In this document: positions 1,665 through 55,046 of the stretch, one piece after another
Layout: the number at the start of each line of letters is the position of its first letter
Position numbering within the stretch: position 1 is the stretch's first letter
Source of the DNA: Ureibacillus acetophenoni
GTDB lineage: Bacteria > Bacillota > Bacilli > Bacillales_A > Planococcaceae
Direction of reading: 5' to 3'
DNA: 64,000 nucleotides
Assembly (NCBI RefSeq): GCF_900220965.1
Contig: NZ_OBQC01000001.1
Coordinates: 1 to 64,000 of the forward strand
The notes under the pieces: model-generated
Database searches by the model: none
What the model was told of the DNA's origin: nothing
What the model saw: only the letters and a program-made list of their open reading frames with translations
Program-made: the position numbers and the translations under genes

Positions 1665-3017
1665 TTAGAATAAAATATGTGCAATTGCTGCAACGATTGG
1701 AATTGAAATAATCGTACGGATTAAGAAGATTACAAACAATCTCCAAATATTTAATGGAAGTTTTGTACCTAAGATTAATCCACCAACTTCAGACATGTAA
1801 ATTAATTGTGTAACAGATACAGTAGCAATGAAGAAACGTGTCATTTCAGATTCAATGCCAGCACCTAATACTGCAGGTAATAACATATCAGCAAAACCAA
1901 CAATCATCGTTTGTGCTGCTGCACCGGCTTCAGGAATTTGAAGTAGCGCTAAAATTGGCTCAAATGGCATACCTAAAATTTTAAAGAAGCTTGTATATTC
2001 TGCAAGAACAAGGGCAATTGTACCAAAAGCCATAATGATTGGTGTGATCGCAAACCACATTTCTAAAACATTCTTTAAACCAGAACCAATTACTTGTCCT
2101 AAATTTTTATTGCTTTCAGCTTTTGTAAGAGCATTTTTAATACCTAAAGAGAACACGTTATAGCCTTCTGGTACATCTTCACGGTTAGCAGGAGGGTTAG
2201 TTCCATCAATCTTTGTATCTGCAATACGACTTAATGGAAATACACGTGGCATAATTAATGCTAAAATAATACTTACAAAAATAACTGATCCATAAAATTG
2301 TACAAAGTAATTGCTCATATCAATTGTTTCAAGAACAACGAAACAGAAAGTAATCGATACTACTGAGAATGTAGTAGCAATTGTTGCTGCCTCACGTGCA
2401 GTATAGTTGCCTTCTTCATATTGTCTGTTTGTTAATAAAACCCCGATAGTTCCGTCACCTACAAATGAAGCTAAACAGTCGATAGCAGCACGGCCAGGAA
2501 TTTTAAATAATGGTCGCATAATTTTAACCATCATTGAACCGAAGAATTCTAATAGACCAAAGTCAGTTAATAACGGTAATAATAATCCTGCAAATAAGAA
2601 TAATGAGAACATCATTGTTACTAATCCGCCATCTGGTGTAATTAATAATCCAGATGTATAGTCACTAGTGAAAGCTTCAGGTCCAATTTGGAATAAATAC
2701 ATCGCTGCAAAAATAACAGCAAGTATTCGCATTATAGTCCAGAACCAATGAACACGGAATAAAGAATCAGCTAGCGTACGATTTTCTTTTGCAGGAATAA
2801 AATGCATAATAATCGATCCCACAGCTGCGATAATAAATACTATAAATGCAAACCAATGTATAAATGAAACGACATTAGCCGATAAGAAATTCGCTAGAAT
2901 AGCGATTGGTACTTTTAGTCCGTCCCCTGTATCAATTGGTGTTATAAATAAGAAAACACCTACTACAGATAAAACGATAAATAAAAACCATGTATATGGT
3001 GTGAATTTTGTAGTCAT
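1665..3017 (-). CDS. YjiH-family membrane protein (nucleoside-recognition/Gate domains)
   Basis: This 450-residue polytopic membrane protein has about ten hydrophobic segments. Its central and C-terminal parts resemble the Gate (nucleoside recognition) fold of the YjiH family, for example the stretches DFGLLEFFGSMM and FADMLLPAVLGAGIESEMTR. The substrate is unknown; related Gate proteins occur in nucleoside transporters and spore maturation proteins. The start is supported by a GAGAGGGAAAG ribosome site. It has its own terminator, so it is probably monocistronic. The family assignment is fairly secure and the transport role is inferred. Confidence 0.75.
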   Translation of the reverse strand: MTTKFTPYTWFLFIVLSVVGVFLFITPIDTGDGLKVPIAILANFLSANVVSFIHWFAFIVFIIAAVGSIIMHFIPAKENRTLADSLFRVHWFWTIMRILAVIFAAMYLFQIGPEAFTSDYTSGLLITPDGGLVTMMFSLFLFAGLLLPLLTDFGLLEFFGSMMVKIMRPLFKIPGRAAIDCLASFVGDGTIGVLLTNRQYEEGNYTAREAATIATTFSVVSITFCFVVLETIDMSNYFVQFYGSVIFVSIILALIMPRVFPLSRIADTKIDGTNPPANREDVPEGYNVFSLGIKNALTKAESNKNLGQVIGSGLKNVLEMWFAITPIIMAFGTIALVLAEYTSFFKILGMPFEPILALLQIPEAGAAAQTMIVGFADMLLPAVLGAGIESEMTRFFIATVSVTQLIYMSEVGGLILGTKLPLNIWRLFVIFLIRTIISIPIVAAIAHILF

Positions 3018-3236
3018 GATCTTTCCCTCTCAGAAGTAAAATTGTATTTGTTGAATATTTATACACTATAAGGGTTTAATATTCATTTGTCTATATGTAT
3101 ATAAAAAGAAATATTATTCAGAAACTTCCGAAACTATTAATGAACTTTTCTATTTTTTATTTTGTGGATAAATAGAGGGAATATACGAAATTCATGGAAG
3201 TTATCAGAGGAATAAACACTAGTTTTTTACAAGATT

Positions 3237-3263
3237 AAAAAGGGCAGGATTAGTATCCTGCCC
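3237..3263 (-). terminator. Terminator of the bshB2-yojF unit
   Basis: A perfect 9-bp stem (GGGCAGGAT/ATCCTGCCC, 3242-3263) with a 4-nt loop is followed on the minus strand by a T run at 3241-3237, immediately after the bshB2 stop. Confidence 0.9.
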
Positions 3264-3274
3264 TTGCATATTTA

Positions 3275-3952
3275 TTAATCTTCAAATGTATAAAGATAAT
3301 AAGATTCCACATTAAACCAACTATCAAGCTTTGTAGTTTCTTCTTCGGATCGATGTTGCGTTTCTTGCATCATCCAAGCGGTTTGAGAATTGTGGGCGCG
3401 TAGTGCTGCTTCTTTGTCTTTTCTTACGCTACTTACATCATGTACGATTGGTGGTACACCGAGTTTAGTCATTGTATTATTAGCAAATCCTACTGCATAA
3501 ATTCGAGGTCGAGATTCTTTTGGAATGCGACGAACAGCTTCAACAACAGCACGGCCAGTAGCCTCGTGATCTGGATGTACAGCAAAGCCGGGATAGAATG
3601 TGATGATTAAGGATGGATTTATTTCATCGATTAAGTCTGTAACGAGCTTCACCATTTTTTCATCATCTTCAAATTCTACGGTTTTATCGCGTAAACCCAT
3701 CATACGAAGATCTTCAATGCCCATTGCTTCGCATGCTGCAATTAGCTCTTTTCGACGGATTTCAGGAAGGGATTCACGTGTTGCAAATGGTGGATTTCCA
3801 AGGTTTCGTCCCATTTCTCCTAATGTTAAACATGCATATGTAACTGGTACGCCCATATTACGATAAAGTCGAATCGTTCCAGCAGAAGAGAAGGCTTCAT
3901 CGTCTGGGTGAGGGAAAACGACTAATACATGACGTTCAGGTTGTAGAGTCAT
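3275..3952 (-). CDS. bshB2: Bacillithiol biosynthesis deacetylase BshB2
   Basis: BshB2 is a zinc-dependent LmbE/PIG-L family N-deacetylase that removes acetate from GlcNAc-malate during synthesis of bacillithiol, the low-molecular-weight thiol of Firmicutes. The 225-residue product carries the metal-site motif HPDDE (H15-E19), the second motif HPDHE (126-130) and the BshB2-type segment GEMGRNLGNPPFATRES. Its length fits B. subtilis YojG (about 221). It lies 14 bp downstream of yojF in the same direction, the same pair as in B. subtilis, and a strong terminator follows. Confidence 0.93.
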   Translation of the reverse strand: MTLQPERHVLVVFPHPDDEAFSSAGTIRLYRNMGVPVTYACLTLGEMGRNLGNPPFATRESLPEIRRKELIAACEAMGIEDLRMMGLRDKTVEFEDDEKMVKLVTDLIDEINPSLIITFYPGFAVHPDHEATGRAVVEAVRRIPKESRPRIYAVGFANNTMTKLGVPPIVHDVSSVRKDKEAALRAHNSQTAWMMQETQHRSEEETTKLDSWFNVESYYLYTFED

Positions 3953-4420: not shown

Positions 4421-4590
4421 GGTGCCTGGTACCCGAACAATTCTGAATTGTTCGGGTACCAGGTACACAAACAATTTGTAATATTCTGAATTTACTTGAA
4501 TTGTTCGGGTGACAGGTACACAAACAATTCGGAATAATCTAAATTGTATCTGAATTGTGTGTGTACCAGGTACACACACAACCCACACAA
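4421..4590. repeat. Cluster of GGTACC-type palindromic repeat elements
   Basis: The cluster holds several related palindromes. One has perfect 18-bp arms (4425-4442 and 4446-4463) around a 3-nt loop. Another has perfect 13-bp arms (4555-4567 and 4569-4581) around one base, and a third, less perfect copy lies between. Shared cores are GGTACCAGGTACA and CAATTCNGAAT. Related single elements occur at 25037-25102, 25369-25419 and 44363-44418. The cluster fills the divergent yojF-ung intergenic region, where both promoters should lie. Short reading frames across it are artefacts of the repeat. Confidence 0.85.
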
Positions 4591-13601: not shown

Positions 13602-13639
13602 AAAGACTATCGCCTTAAATGAAGGAGATAGTCTTTTTG
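13602..13639 (+). terminator. Terminator after the DUF1450 gene
   Basis: AAAGACTATC..CCTT (13602-13615) pairs with AAGG..GATAGTCTTT (13622-13636), followed by T. Confidence 0.8.
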
Positions 13640-18534: not shown

Positions 18535-19400
18535 CAAGTTTGAGGTCTGCGTTGAAGTGATGAAGATCATTTTGTCGTGGAATTCGGATGGTAATGTCCT
18601 TCATAAGGGCGCTGAAGCTCATTTTGGAGTGAAATTCAGGTGGAAATGTCCTTCATAAGGTTGATGAAGCCCGTTTTGGAGTGAGATTTGGGTGGAAATG
18701 TCCTTCATAAGGGTGATGAAGCCCGTTTTGGAGTGAAATTTGGGTGGAAATGTCCTTCATAAGGGTGATGAAGCCCATTTTGGAGTGAAATTTGGGTGGA
18801 AATGTCCTTCATAAGCATGATGGAGCCCATTTTGAAGTGAAAATCGGATGGAAATATCTTTATAAGTGTGATCAAGGACATTTCGAAGTGAAAACAGGTT
18901 AGAAATGTCTTTGATAATATCTATAAAAGACATTACAGCAAGAAAATGGCCTTGAAATGTCTTTAATAAGCCTTGTAAAGGACATTATAGTAAGCAAATC
19001 ATCGTGAAATGTCTTTTACAAGGCCCCTAAAGGACATTACAGCAAGCAAATCGTTATGAAATGTCTTTAATAAGGCCCCTAAAGGACATTACAACAAGCA
19101 AATCATTGTGAAATGTCTTTTACAAGGTCCCTAAAGGACATTACAGTAAGCAAATCATTGTGAAATGTCTTTTACAAGGCCCCTAAAGGACATTACAGCA
19201 AGCAAATCGTCATGAAATGTCTTTAATAAGGCCTCTAAAGGACATTACAGCGACAAAATCGCCATGAAATGTCTTTAATAAGGCCCCTAAAGGACATTAC
19301 AGCAAGCAAATCGTCATGAAATGTCTTTAATAGTGCCTCTAAAGGACATTAGAACAAAAAAATCATTATGAAATGTCTTTAATAATTCAGATAAACACAT
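18535..19400. repeat. Tandem array with 52-bp period (about 16-17 units)
   Basis: Units recur at 18593, 18644, 18696, 18748, 18800, 18853, 18903, 18955, 19007 and 19059 and onward, steps of 50-53 and mostly exactly 52. There are two subfamilies. The left has AAATGTCCTTCAT paired with ATGAAGCCCATTTT; the right has AAATGTCTTTA paired with TAAAGGACATT. Each unit holds a short inverted repeat and a less conserved spacer of about 20 bp. The array lies between divergent pbpG and speB, where B. subtilis has speE. No reading frame of note is present. It is the same family as 52720-54290. Confidence 0.92.
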
Positions 19401-30054: not shown

Positions 30055-30085
30055 ACCATATTTTTATGAAAATAGTTTCTCAAAC

Positions 30086-30434
30086 TCGCAAGTAAGCTCA
30101 TTAGAATCGCTAGTAACGTACTGAAAATCGCAAGTGAATTCCATCAAATTCGGAAAACGCAAATAAGTAACCAAAACTCGCAAATAAACTCCATAGAATC
30201 GCAAGTAACGTTCTGAAATTCGCAAGTAAAATTTATCAATTTAAGAAATCGCACGAAAGTATTCAAAACTCGCTCATAAGTTTCTGAAATTCGCCCGTAA
30301 TCTTAAGAAAAGCGCTCGTAAAAACCTGAAATAAGCTAAAACGCCCGTAAGTATGCAAATGTCGCCCATAAGTACGTGGAACTCGCCCGTAAATATCAGA
30401 AACTCGCACATAAACACCTGAATTTCGCCCGTAG
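30086..30434. repeat. Array of 21-bp-step TCGCAAGTAA/TCGCCCGTAA repeats
   Basis: About sixteen copies of a 10-base core (TCGCAAGTAA at the left, changing to TCGCCCGTAA or TCGCCCATAA at the right) are separated by unconserved 11-base spacers. The step is 21 bp for most units, with a few of 29-30. The cores are conserved while spacers are random, the opposite of a simple satellite. It lies between the ABC operon terminator and mmsA. No reading frame of note is present. Confidence 0.9.
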
Positions 30435-36160: not shown

Positions 36161-37620
36161 AGGCGAATTACTCCTTTAATTTGGCGAATAAGTCTATCAA
36201 ACTGGCGAATATCTTCAGGATTTGGCTAATATTAACACATTATTAGCATCCAAAAAGTCTTCCTGGCGAATAACCCCTTTAATTTGGCGAATAAATCTAT
36301 CAAACTGGCGAATATCTTCAAGATTTTGGCTAATATGCCCCCATTAACAGCTCCAAAAAGTCATCCTGGCGAATAACTCCTTCAATTTGGCGAATAATTG
36401 TATCAAACTGGGCGAATATCTTCAGGATTTTGGCTAATATGCCCCCATTAACAGCTCCAAAAAGACATCCTGGCGAATAACCCCTTTAATTTGGCGAATA
36501 ATTCTATTAAACTGGCGAATACTTTCGCGATTTTGGCGAATATCCCTCCATTAGCAGCTCTAAAAAGTCTTCCTGGCGAATAACTCCTTTAATTTGGCGA
36601 ATAATTGTATCAAACTGGCGAATATCTTCAGGATTTTGGCTAATATGCCCCCATTAACAGCTCCAAAAAGTCATCCTGGCTAATAACTACTTTAATTTGG
36701 CGAATATCCCTCCATTAGCAGCTCCAAAAAGTCATCCTGGCGAATTACTCCTTTAATTTGGCGAATAATTCAAACTGGCGAATATCTTCAGGATTTTGGC
36801 TAATATGCCTCCATTAGCAGCTCTAAAAAGTCATCCTGGCGAATAACTCCTTTAATTTGGCGAATAAGTCTATCAAACTGGCGAATACTTTCGCGATTTT
36901 GGCGAAAATCCCCCCATTAGCAGCGCCAAAAAGTCATCCTGGCTAATAACTCCTTCAATTTGGCGAATAAGTCTATCAAACTGGCGAATATCTTCAAGAT
37001 TTTGGCTAATATGCCCCCATTAACAGCTCCAAAAAGTCATCCTGGCGAATAACCCCTTTAATTTGGCGAATAAGTCTATCAAACTGGCGAATATCTTCAG
37101 GATTTGGCTAATATTAACACATTATTAGCATCCAAAAAGTCTTCCTGGCGAATAACCCCTTTAATTTGGCGAATAAATCTATCAAACTGGCGAATATCTT
37201 CAAGATTTTGGCTAATATGCCCCCATTAACAGCTCCAAAAAGTCATCCTGGCGAATAACCCCTTTAATTTGGCGAATAAGTCTATCAAACTGGCGAATAC
37301 TTTCGCGATTTTGGCGAATATCCCTCCAATAGCAGCTCCAAAAAATCTTCCTGGCTAATAACTCCTTCAATTTGGCGAATAAGTCTATCAAACTGGCGAA
37401 TACTTTCGTAATTTTGGCGAAAATCCCCCCATTAGCAGCTCTAAAAAGTCATCCTGGCGAATAACTCCTTTAATTTGGCGAATAATTGTATCAAACTGGC
37501 GAATAACTACAGGATTTTGGCTAATATCAACACATTATTAGCATCCACTAAGTCTTCCTGGAAAATAATAGAGGATAAGTCTATTAAACTGACGATAACC
37601 TTCATGATTTTGGCGAATAT
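36161..37620. repeat. Tandem array, 103-bp unit made of 21-bp TTGGCGAATAA steps
   Basis: About fourteen units occur. Unit starts (CCTGGCGAA) are at 36262, 36365, 36469, 36572 and 36675, steps of 103-104; a few units are shortened (61 and 99 bp). Within a unit TGGCGAATA-like cores lie at offsets 0, 21, 42 and 63, followed by a 40-bp stretch (gccccc and agctccaaaaag). The core TGGCGAATAA resembles TCGCAAATAA of the 30-kb array (8 of 10). It lies between a plus-strand terminator and the convergent HXXEE gene. No coding capacity. Confidence 0.93.
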
Positions 37621-51024: not shown

Positions 51025-52626
51025 ATGACGAAGTATATTTTTGTAACAGGTGGAGTTGTTTCATCTTTAGGGAAGGGAATTGTCGCATCTTCATTAGGAA
51101 GACTGCTTAAAAACCGTGGTTTACAAGTAACGATTCAAAAATTCGATCCATATTTAAATATTGACCCAGGTACAATGAGTCCTTATCAACATGGTGAAGT
51201 ATTCGTAACAGATGATGGCGCGGAAGCAGATTTAGACTTAGGACACTATGAACGTTTTATTGATATTAATTTAGGGAAACATTCAACTGTAACTTCTGGA
51301 CGTGTTTATCAATCAGTTCTTGCTAAAGAACGTCGTGGTGATTATAACGGGAAAACAGTTCAAGTAATTCCTCACGTAACAAACGAAATTAAAGACCGTA
51401 TCCAACGTGCTGGTCGTGAAACAAATGCAGATATCGTTATTACAGAGGTTGGTGGAACAGTAGGTGACATCGAATCACTACCATTCCTTGAAGCAATCCG
51501 TCAAATGAGATCTGACCTTGGTCATAAAAATGTAATGTACATTCACTGTACTTTAATTCCATACATTGCAGCTGCTGGTGAGTTAAAAACAAAACCAACA
51601 CAACATTCTGTAAAAGAATTACGCTCTTTAGGAATTCAGCCAAATATTTTAGTTGTACGTACAGAACAACCGATTTCTCAAGACATGCGTGAAAAGTTAG
51701 CATTATTCTGTGACGTAACTGCTCGTGATATTATTGAATCTGCGGATGCAGAGCATTTATATGAAATTCCATTAAAGTTACATGCTCAAGATTTTGACGA
51801 TATCGTGTTAGAGCACTTTGGTATTGAAGCGCCCGAGGCAGATATGGCAGCTTGGAAAGAGCTTGTTGTAAGAGTGAAAAACTTAACTCACAAAACGCGT
51901 ATCGCATTAGTAGGGAAATATGTTGAACTACAAGATGCTTATATTTCAGTTGTTGAAGCGTTAAAACATGCTGGTTATACGTTTGATTCAGATATTGAAG
52001 TAGATTGGATTAATGCCGAAGAAGTAAATACTGAAAATGTACAAGAATTATTAAAAGACGCTGATGGTATTTTAGTGCCTGGTGGATTTGGTGATCGTGG
52101 AATCGAAGGGAAAATCGCAGCAATTCAATTTGCACGAGAAAACGATATCCCATTCCTAGGTATTTGTTTAGGTATGCAATTAGCAACGATTGAATTTGCT
52201 CGTAACGTACTAGGTTTAGAAGGTGCCCACTCAACAGAATTAAACAAAGGAACACCATACCCAATTATCGACTTCTTACCAGATCAAAGCGATGAGGTAG
52301 ACCTAGGTGGTACGTTACGTTTAGGTTTATATCCTTGTAAGTTAAAAGAAGGTTCTCGTGCAGAGGCAGCTTACAATGACGAATTAGTTTACGAACGTCA
52401 CCGTCACCGTTATGAGTTCAATAACGAGTACCGTGAAGCGATGGAAGCAGAAGGCCTTGTATTCTCTGGTACAAGCCCAGACAATCGCTTAGTCGAAATT
52501 ATCGAATTACCTGAGAAAAAATTCTTCATGGCATGTCAATTCCACCCAGAATTCGTTTCTCGCCCACAACGTCCACAACCACTATTCCGTGAGTTTGTCG
52601 GCGCAGCGTTTAATTTTAAACGATAA
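51025..52626 (+). CDS. pyrG: CTP synthase
   Basis: PyrG aminates UTP to CTP using glutamine and ATP. The 533-residue protein has an N-terminal synthetase domain with the P-loop-like [11 protein letters not shown] (about 9-19) and a C-terminal class I glutamine amidotransferase domain with the oxyanion segment [12 protein letters not shown], nucleophile cysteine in GICLGMQLA (about 379) and the FHPEF histidine/glutamate (about 511-515). AGAGGAGG lies upstream. Its leader carries the attenuator described at 50702. Confidence 0.98.
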
Positions 52627-52644
52627 TAAATTATGAGATATGAG

Positions 52645-52678
52645 ACCCCAAATGCCGGATTGGCATTTGGGGGTTTTT
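52645..52678 (+). terminator. pyrG terminator
   Basis: ACCCCAAATGCC pairs with GGCATTTGGGGgT, a 12-bp stem followed by TTTTT. Confidence 0.93.
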
Positions 52679-52719
52679 GATTTTGATTCATAGTGGGGCA
52701 TTTTTATTTTGGTTTCGTT

Positions 52720-54290
52720 CTAAAGGACAAAAGTGGGAGGGAGTTGCATTGAAATGTCTTTAATGAGCTTCTAAAAGACAAAAGTGGAAGGAAATTGGAT
52801 TGAAATGTCTTTAATAGGCCTTATAAAGGACAAAAGTTGAAGGGAACTGCGTTGTAATGTCTTTTATCGGACTTATAAAGGACAAAAGCGAGAGGGAGTT
52901 GCATTGAGATGTCTTTAATAGAGCTTATAAAAGACAAAAATTGGAGGAATTCGGGTTGAAATGTCTTTTATAGACTTTATAAAGGACAAAAATGGAAGGA
53001 AATTGGGTTGAAATGTCTTTAATAGGGCTTATAAAAGACAAAAGTGGAAGGAAATTGGGTTGAAATGTCTTTTATCGGCCATATAAAGGACAAAAGTGGA
53101 AGGGAATTGAGTTGTAATGACTTTAATAGAGCTTATAAAAGACAAAGATGGAAGGAAATTGGGTTGAAATGTCTTTTATCGGCCATATAAAGGACAAAAG
53201 TGGAAGGGAATTGAGTTGTAATGTCTTTTATCGGACTTATAAAGGACAAAAGTGGAAGGTAATCGCGTTGAAATGTCTTTTATAACCCTTATAATGGACA
53301 AAAGTGAGAGGATATTGCGGTGATATGTCTTTTATAAGTGTGATGAAGGACATTTGAAGGTGGAAAACGATTAGAAATGTCTTTCATAAGGATGATGAAG
53401 GACATTTAAAGGTGGAAATTGGTTAGAAATGTCTTTCATAGAGGTGATGAAGGACATTTAAAGGTGGAAATTGGTTAGAAATGTCTTTCATACAAGTGAT
53501 GAAGGACATTTGTAGGTGGAAAATGATTAGAAATGTCTTTCATACAGGTGATGAAGGACATTTGAAGGTGGAAAACGATTAGAAATGTCTTTCATAAGGA
53601 TGATGAAGGACATTTGAAGGTGGAAAACGATTAGAAATGTCTTTCATAAGGATGATGAAGGACATTTAAAGGTGGAAATTGGTTAGAAATGTCTTTCATA
53701 GAGGTGATGAAGGACATTTAAAGGTGGAAATTGGTTAGAAATGTCTTTCATACAGGTGATGAAGGACATTTGTAGGTGGAAAATGGTTAGAAATGTCTTT
53801 CATACAGGTGATGAAGGACATTTGAAGGTGGAAAATGGTTAGAAATGTCTTTCATAAGGGTGATGAAGGACATTTAAAGGTGGAAATTGGTTAGAAATGT
53901 CTTTCATAGAGGTGATGAAGGACATTTGAAGATGATAAAGGATCAAAAACGTCTTTCATACAGGTGATGAAGGCCATTTTGAATCAAAAACTGACCAGTA
54001 CTGGTCTTGATAAGACGGATAACGACCATTTTGAACTAAAAATCAAACAAAACTGGTCTTGATAAAACGGATGAGGACCGATTTGAACCGAAAAATAATC
54101 AAAACTGGTCTCGATAAGGCGGATGAAGACCATTTTGAACAAAAAAATGATCAAAACTGGTCTTGATAAGGCGGATGAGGATCAATTTAATTCAAAAGGC
54201 AATCTAAAAAGGTCTTGATAAAGCAGATGAAGACCGATTTGATCCAAAAAACGAACAAAATCGGTCTTCATTAGTACTTCAAACTATTTT
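52720..54290. repeat. Tandem array with strict 52-bp period (about 30 units), three subfamilies
   Basis: Landmark GACA/GACC positions are 52881, 52933, 52985, 53037, then 53349, 53401, 53453, then 54024, 54076, 54128, 54180 and 54232. All steps are 52 within blocks, and block-to-block distances are 312 (6x52) and 675 (13x52 minus 1). Subfamily A has TGTCTTTA..TAAAGGACA arms, B has AAATGTCTTTCAT/ATGAAGGACATTT, and C has TGGTCTTGAT/ATGAAGACCA. Spacers of about 20 bp vary. Lies between convergent pyrG and ywjG. No gene present. Confidence 0.95.
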
Positions 54291-54305: not shown

Positions 54306-54836
54306 TCACAACTCGTCATCATCGAAAATTATCTCATCATAGCTTAACTTAATTGCTTCATAAACAAATAGCGCGGAAAATAAATGCGGGATTAATGTGC
54401 GCTCCCCTAATTTAGTAGGGTGGGGTAGAATGCCGCCTCTCACTTTCATTGAAATATAAGTGTAAGCGAGTTCACTCAATTCATTTCCTTCATCTGGTTT
54501 CTCACTAGCAACCGCAGCAAAAGGAATAAATTCCTCAGCCAACTGTTTTGCAAGAGCCAACGCATCTTCATTCTGACTACTTTTTGTAAATATACAAACA
54601 CGATCTACATCATTAATCACGGTGTCTGGAGTCCATTTTTCTAATTGATAGAATGGCTCTGAATTATGTAAAGCATTAAGCTCAACACCTTCTAATCCAT
54701 CAAAACATGCAAAATAAACTTTCCCTTCACCAACAGATGCTTGGGCGAGTAATCTTGCAGTTTCTTCGATGGCTTCTTCTTCACTCTGTGAGATTCTTTG
54801 TAATAAACCTGTTAATTGGGTTGTAAGTATTTTCAT
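54306..54836 (-). CDS. ywjG: DUF2529 family protein YwjG
   Basis: This 176-residue protein resembles sugar-isomerase (SIS)-like folds, as does B. subtilis YwjG (about 172); no activity is established. The start at 54836 (MKILTTQLTGLL) has GAGGTG 7 nt upstream; a reading seven codons longer overlaps that site. It is divergent from spo0F as in B. subtilis, and its 3' end abuts the 52-bp repeat array with no separate terminator visible. Confidence 0.82.
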   Translation of the reverse strand: MKILTTQLTGLLQRISQSEEEAIEETARLLAQASVGEGKVYFACFDGLEGVELNALHNSEPFYQLEKWTPDTVINDVDRVCIFTKSSQNEDALALAKQLAEEFIPFAAVASEKPDEGNELSELAYTYISMKVRGGILPHPTKLGERTLIPHLFSALFVYEAIKLSYDEIIFDDDEL

Positions 54837-55046
54837 TCCGTTCACCTCTAAAATCATTATAAAGTTATATTAGTAAAATTAAAATCCATGTACTTTGTCT
54901 CATCAAGTTTAGTTATAAATAGGTCATTATTCAAGCAAATGAATATTATATGGAGAATAAAATATCAACTTAAAAGGTTTTAAACTCAAAATAATAGGGA
55001 ACGTAATAGTTAAATAGATTAATAAATTTTGGAATGGGAGAGAATC

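Follow-up and report, generated by a model that had tools for sequence, protein, structure and literature searches.

Tandem arrays whose units repeat every 51 or 52 bp, each unit built around a 27-bp inverted repeat, form a real family that is restricted to a single genus. Two of them lie in the window, i.e. the whole 64-kb stretch of Ureibacillus acetophenoni DNA that was analysed, and the larger one (array A) is the subject of this report. The family looks to be under selection for its half-sites and for their helical phasing, and the arrays are most likely bound by a protein, for which a catalytically dead serine resolvase encoded in the same genomes is the leading, as yet unproved, candidate.

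Results

Structure and register of array A

Array A consists of about 30 units spanning 52,721-54,280, all in one 52-bp frame (Table 1). Tandem Repeats Finder (TRF) returned period-52 rows at 52,721-53,336, 53,325-53,979 and 53,966-54,268, and identity at a lag of 52 bp was 0.81 over 1,548 bp, compared with at most 0.32 across 500 shuffles, so that the tandem register of the original prediction is real. Its repeating element is an inverted repeat, one per unit, which the first description overlooked together with the wider family; array A is not unique even within the 64-kb window, which also holds array B. When the dyad centers are followed, the register does persist across the subfamily borders, as had been claimed, and from 53,301 onward, where 18 dyads were matched, all 17 steps are exactly 52 bp; the claim of an exact 52-bp register fails at a single 51-bp step near the array start (52,755 to 52,806). 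A landmark distance of 675 bp, read earlier as 13 x 52 minus 1, reflects a landmark displaced by 1 bp at the border to the third subfamily, where the arms change from GTC-N19-GAC to GGTC-N17-GACC; the shortening of both arms leaves the centers 52 bp apart. By eye, a terminator-like hairpin (approximately 52,645-52,680) separates array A from the preceding gene.

Table 1. Coordinates of arrays A and B and of the genes that flank array A
Feature	Position	Strand	Description
Array B	18557..19385	+	Second 52-bp array, of the family of array A; ~16 units, upstream of a presumably agmatinase-like gene
pyrG (CTP synthase), presumed	51025..52626	+	Upstream neighbor of array A
Array A, subfamily 1	52721..53326	+	~12 units of 52 bp, dyad TGTCTTTWAT..ATAAAGGACA, one 51-bp step
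Array A, subfamily 2	53327..54002	+	~13 units, dyad ATGTCTTTCAT-N7-ATGAAGGACAT
Array A, subfamily 3	54003..54280	+	~6 units, of which 5 match the class II dyad GGTC-N17-GA[CT]C; centers 52 bp apart
DUF2529-family gene, presumed	54306..54857	-	Convergent neighbor of array A; marker for finding the locus in relatives

Spacing is kept while linkers drift

We assembled a catalogue of 62 arrays, each with two or more dyads; they come from seven sample sources and 40 fetched loci, mostly picked via search matches. Counting any step of up to 80 bp between neighboring dyads, 405 steps were 52 bp, 65 were 51 bp and one was 53 bp, i.e. 470 of 471 were 51 or 52 bp; left out of this count were gaps above 80 bp, in which a dyad has diverged beyond the pattern and most of which lie near multiples of 51 or 52 (104, 156, 208; the exceptions include 105, 106, 144 and 205), and a 55-bp step at the edge of one array (G010, 109,950-110,296), which falls outside the edges used. 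Linker interiors compared between 45 period-52 arrays were 31% identical, vs 28% after shuffling, and these near-saturated linkers keep a length of 24-25 bp, so the earlier observation that register is conserved better than sequence extends well past array A. Open frames of at least 90 codons cover most of the array in 9 of the 62 cases and are taken for chance frames. At one orthologous locus, whose flanks align at 92-93% identity between two sister genomes, one array has 19 matched dyads and the other 14, all steps being 52 bp (18/18 and 13/13); copy number thus varies between relatives, as it does in minisatellites (VNTRs). Selection on spacing and local duplication had been offered as alternative causes, and both apply: duplication evidently occurs, and the sequence comparisons indicate selection on spacing and half-sites.

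Divergence within units

The 27-bp dyad has the form TGTCYNNNA-N9-TNNNRGACA, with two half-sites TGTCYNNNA. We cut 661 units from 57 arrays by register and compared the 579 period-52 units with the consensus of their own array. Difference rates were 4.1% at TGTC/GACA, which had belonged to the search pattern, 3.0% at A9/T19, which had not, and 8.8% at stem positions 5-8 with the positions they pair with; the rate was 16.2% for the loop and 19.3% for the linker interior. The low divergence of the half-sites relative to the linkers is, as far as sequence can tell, the binding-site footprint of a putative binder. Position 9 is an A paired with T in 56 of 62 arrays. Positions 5-8 differ between arrays, yet are complementary in 168 of 248 pairs, a symmetric covariation that is not predicted by a simple half-site model and might arise from quasi-palindrome correction at replication. 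Where the array consensus is non-complementary, 200 of 347 unit changes restore pairing, and within arrays few cells (23) show a double complementary change. Mismatches of the G.T and A.C types are nearly equal, both in array consensuses (30 vs 28, positions 5-11) and among single changes in units (91 vs 71, p 0.14), which therefore favors recognition of double-stranded DNA over an RNA stem.

Distribution within and outside the genus

The genome from which the window derives (3.98 Mb in 39 contigs) contains 238 forward and 248 reverse matches to the middle-subfamily pattern at up to three mismatches, compared with 0 and 1 for the reversed control. A generalized pair pattern (TGTC-N19-GACA, N12 to N42, TGTC-N19-GACA, allowing steps of 39-69) gave 460 paired matches in this genome and matched 13 of the 25 genomes of the genus, while the other 236 genomes of the family yielded three single pair matches only, at spacings of 41, 49 and 60 bp; its reversed control matched none of the 25 genus genomes and seven of the 236 others. 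A looser pattern added G012 (13 matches) and G006 (one), gave 102 matches in G005 and found no match in the 236 family genomes outside the genus, and an order-wide search covered the same 261 genomes. Counting looser matches, arrays are present in 15 of 25 genus genomes, two of which (G006, G017) have a single pair only; three array-bearing genomes (G002, G005, G013) are each a single contig. The array family is therefore not a product of one assembly, and comparison among relatives, which could have revealed variable unit lengths, found arrays that keep 51/52 bp.

Among 14 named relatives read at the pyrG-DUF2529 locus, only Ureibacillus manganicus, the closest named record by its DUF2529 gene (85% identity), has a 52-bp array there, and the other 13 are without one; a search of plasmid relatives for array A gave no match. 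In a 400-kb stretch chosen regardless of matches, the repeat clusters longer than 250 bp comprised one with a 52-bp period (770 bp), two with a 51-bp period (320 and 279 bp), one with a 103-bp period (353 bp) and one with a 172-bp period (556 bp); one further 52-bp array measured 151 bp. Samples of 100 kb each from G017, G001 and G012, 60 kb from G003 and 40 kb from G016 contained no 51/52-bp array. An unbiased stretch of G010 (at 187,625) has a 52-bp array of the GGTC class without any TGTC-N19-GACA.

Polarity and gene context

The arrays have a direction, which we called from the linker (GACAAA...GAANTGTC when read on one strand). Among the 46 catalogue arrays that could be assigned (16 of 62 could not), 42 follow the leading strand as judged by GC skew and four run against the local skew, which in one case is 0.002. 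The single-contig genome G002 has 232 forward and 80 reverse matches; among the matches listed, all reverse ones lie below 1.94 Mb and all forward ones above 2.79 Mb, and the sign of the local skew matches the array strand in all pieces of this genome with assigned arrays except one at 0.002. As the linker motif used to call polarity is purine-biased, composition could be a partial cause of the strand polarity. Co-orientation with the array holds for 34 of 46 upstream genes and for 23 of 45 downstream ones; 1,154 of 1,429 open reading frames of at least 150 codons lie on the leading strand. Arrays occur in convergent, tandem and divergent gaps, which rules out a role at one promoter or one 3' end.

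A catalytically dead serine resolvase as candidate binder

The likeness of the array half-site to that of gamma-delta resolvase was recorded before the protein search. Each of the 25 genus genomes contains at least one HTH_7 match; a search of the genus with this domain yielded 18 similar proteins (180-215 aa, 17 genomes), which form the only cluster present in many genomes among the proteins of 30 HTH_7 loci. One genome (G000), in which the dead resolvase is encoded at C30:55,068-55,622 on the minus strand, has three more HTH_7 matches. The Pfam matches of the clustered protein (Resolvase 1.7e-17, HTH_7 2.5e-11), PDB sequence searches and fold searches with a predicted model (pLDDT 78.7, pTM 0.57), for which the best matches were gamma-delta, Sin and Tn3 resolvase (E ~1e-9 to 1e-8, TM 0.4-0.55), place the protein among the serine resolvases, the fold as modeled. 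It has the fold and the HTH_7 domain of that family and lacks the catalytic serine and the DRLGR arginines: the motif GYxRPLYND...GISKSTLYRYLE is characteristic, GY.RPL replaces the catalytic-serine motif of active enzymes in 28 of 28 rows read, and 13 genus proteins, aligned to gamma-delta, have other residues in place of both DRLGR arginines (as in ERMFVLAD) and share an identical recognition helix.

The gene is syntenic, adjoining what we take to be a SulP-type transporter gene in 18 of 18 loci read, and 20 of the 25 genus genomes have a close orthologue (at least 62% identity). Of these 20, 15 carry arrays and five gave no array match, vs no array-bearing genome among the five without the orthologue (Fisher 0.005, a value that ignores kinship). 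Outside the genus, the protein has matches at 1e-10 in 146 genomes, and in three of these (G184, G195, G179) the identity is 62-65%; some of the 146 are probably other resolvases, and no arrays were found in the family genomes outside the genus that carry such matches. Of 30 loci of the dead resolvase, two have an array as a neighbor of the gene.

A conserved inverted repeat, with variants, lies about 33 bp upstream of the dead resolvase gene in the 31 loci read. Outside the genus, nine of ten loci have a GTCY half-site in this element, which ranks 1-15 of 2,978 by the array matrix, and the tenth (G195) ranks 105. Within the genus, GTCY is absent from all 21 loci; TTCCY half-sites occur on at least one side, the element ranks 10-149 of 2,978, and the array matrix fails to pick it out in these 21 loci. 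Because of this split, the upstream element makes a link between arrays and dead resolvase suggestive outside the genus and leaves it unsupported inside.

Other neighbors of the gene vary. A gene that we take to be kinase-like is next to it in several array-bearing genomes (L200, L217, L215, L210, L213, L224), and presumed SDR/TetR-type genes in L207, L208 and L212, from genomes without array matches, the SDR-type also in L216 and L218, from array genomes. G014 (contig C11, L225) and G007 (contig C16, L226) each carry another, more divergent copy of the dead resolvase gene, and the segment is apparently the same in these two species.

Discussion

From these sequence data we infer binding by a protein, the identity of the binder as the dead resolvase and its role. 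Each 27-bp dyad, with its two TGTCYNNNA half-sites, is a predicted dimer site, and centers 51/52 bp apart, about five helical turns, would place bound dimers on one face of the DNA, where they could touch their neighbors and fold it. The dead resolvase, which is predicted to keep the resolvase fold and DNA-binding domain without the catalytic serine, would dock on the arrays as an architectural or nucleoid-organizing protein, much as resolvase does at res accessory sites. We hold this account, helically phased inverted-repeat sites for a dimeric protein that acts architecturally, with the dead resolvase as best candidate, tentatively, as possible rather than probable. A broader version, in which a domesticated dead resolvase polymerizes in phase on many res-like intergenic arrays, oriented with the leading strand, and so folds or marks the chromosome throughout the genus, is doubtful.

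The closest known system is found in the res sites of Tn3-type resolvases. The gamma-delta resolvase half-site is TGTCYNNTA, which the array half-site TGTCYNNNA resembles; a literature search for the resolvase half-site sequence gave no match. In one published account, res sites have inverted half-sites of 12 bp in boxes of 25-34 bp, a range that includes the 27-bp dyads, and phasing is important; the centers of sites I and II generally lie five helical turns apart (range four to seven), comparable to the 51/52 bp of the arrays in 470 of 471 steps (PMC12217951). A catalytically inactive S10A domain can serve Tn3 res accessory sites II and III, according to PMC9943657. Unlike res sites, the arrays comprise up to about 30 equal sites of 27 bp, an odd length, at many loci, have no three-site layout and are mostly away from the dead resolvase gene. 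The protein is similarly close to gamma-delta, Tn3 and Sin resolvases in fold, length and helix-turn-helix, and differs from them in its replaced catalytic residues. Other repeat classes share fewer features. REP/BIME elements are intergenic palindromic repeats at many loci, as the arrays are; the arrays in contrast are head-to-tail repeats with a step of 51/52 bp, and their distribution does not follow that of Y1 transposases. A RAYT/Y1 transposase as driver is rejected, Y1_Tnp being absent from the array-bearing genomes G002, G004, G007, G010, G011 and G013. MIRU/VNTR loci are intergenic tandem minisatellites with units of about 50 bp and variable copy number, which the arrays again match, while being constrained at the dyad and in phasing with linkers near saturation. 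A CRISPR array was also rejected, as linkers are similar within an array, in contrast to identical repeats with unrelated spacers. Our literature search, at listing level and with subscription literature mostly outside its reach, found nothing like these arrays.

The evidence also has to be weighed against readings that do without the dead resolvase. The arrays might be neutral minisatellites, with neither protein nor function, in which hairpin-prone units expand through slippage or unequal exchange without change of unit length, and the arms stay complementary through template switching in quasi-palindromes. Such a process would account for orthologous arrays of different copy number, for internal arm positions that covary between arrays with changes that often restore pairing, and, through replication-linked mutation, for strand-linked polarity. 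It fits poorly with half-sites, A9/T19 included, whose divergence is some 5- to 6-fold lower than that of the linkers of the same units, with near-saturated linkers that still keep their length, and with the rarity of double complementary changes within arrays; moreover, a 103-bp family in the window does drift in length (long steps of 103 bp x 9, 104 x 2, 61 and 99, a control of one array only). We consider the neutral reading unlikely.

That footprint argues for some binder, and this might be a different protein, e.g. an active Tn3-type or plasmid resolvase, a repressor or a nucleoid protein. HTH_7 proteins are found throughout the genus, the dead resolvase's own upstream element there is unlike the array half-site, and some genera have the dead resolvase without arrays. 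Half-site, spacing and fold nevertheless point to the resolvase family, and no other cluster at the 30 HTH_7 loci recurs in many genomes, which makes another binder rather improbable in our judgment. Transcribed arrays could alternatively work as RNA, serving as protein sponges or as 3' end or stability elements, given that the inverted repeat would allow one stem-loop per unit and that units are polar and mostly co-oriented with the preceding gene. A selected stem should favor G.U on one strand, and RNA hairpins are discounted on the mismatch types; array A comes after a terminator-like hairpin, and an Rfam search of the window gave no match in its arrays. We give the RNA reading in general very little credence.

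If the dead-resolvase account is true, a recombinase has taken on a structural role on DNA along with its expanded sites, and arrays in which spacing is selected and sequence is free would make helical phasing directly testable in a bacterial chromosome. Even if neutral, the arrays offer a natural archive of the way in which unit length is held in tandem repeats.

Other repeats in the window and in other genomes

Further repeats were seen alongside the 51/52-bp family. The 103-bp-unit intergenic family (window 36162-37568, and G000 C28 97-449, L045) has TGGCGAATA-type motifs mostly every 21 bp. A related-looking family (window 30082-30430, and G017 at 13,613 and 19,725 of L259) has TCGCNNRTAA or CGCACATAAA motifs about 21 bp apart, with a period of 42 bp in G017. 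A short 53/54-bp tandem repeat of 2.6 copies (window 4443-4581) lies upstream of a gene that is presumably uracil-DNA glycosylase-like. In several Lysinibacillus and Ureibacillus species, arrays with units of 105-144 bp lie upstream of DUF2529 (L003-L008, L010, at ~2270-3370); an Rfam search of those in L004 and L007 gave no match, and many of the units carry a hairpin-like motif, TTTTCTGCGCCGAAAGC..GGCGCAAAA.
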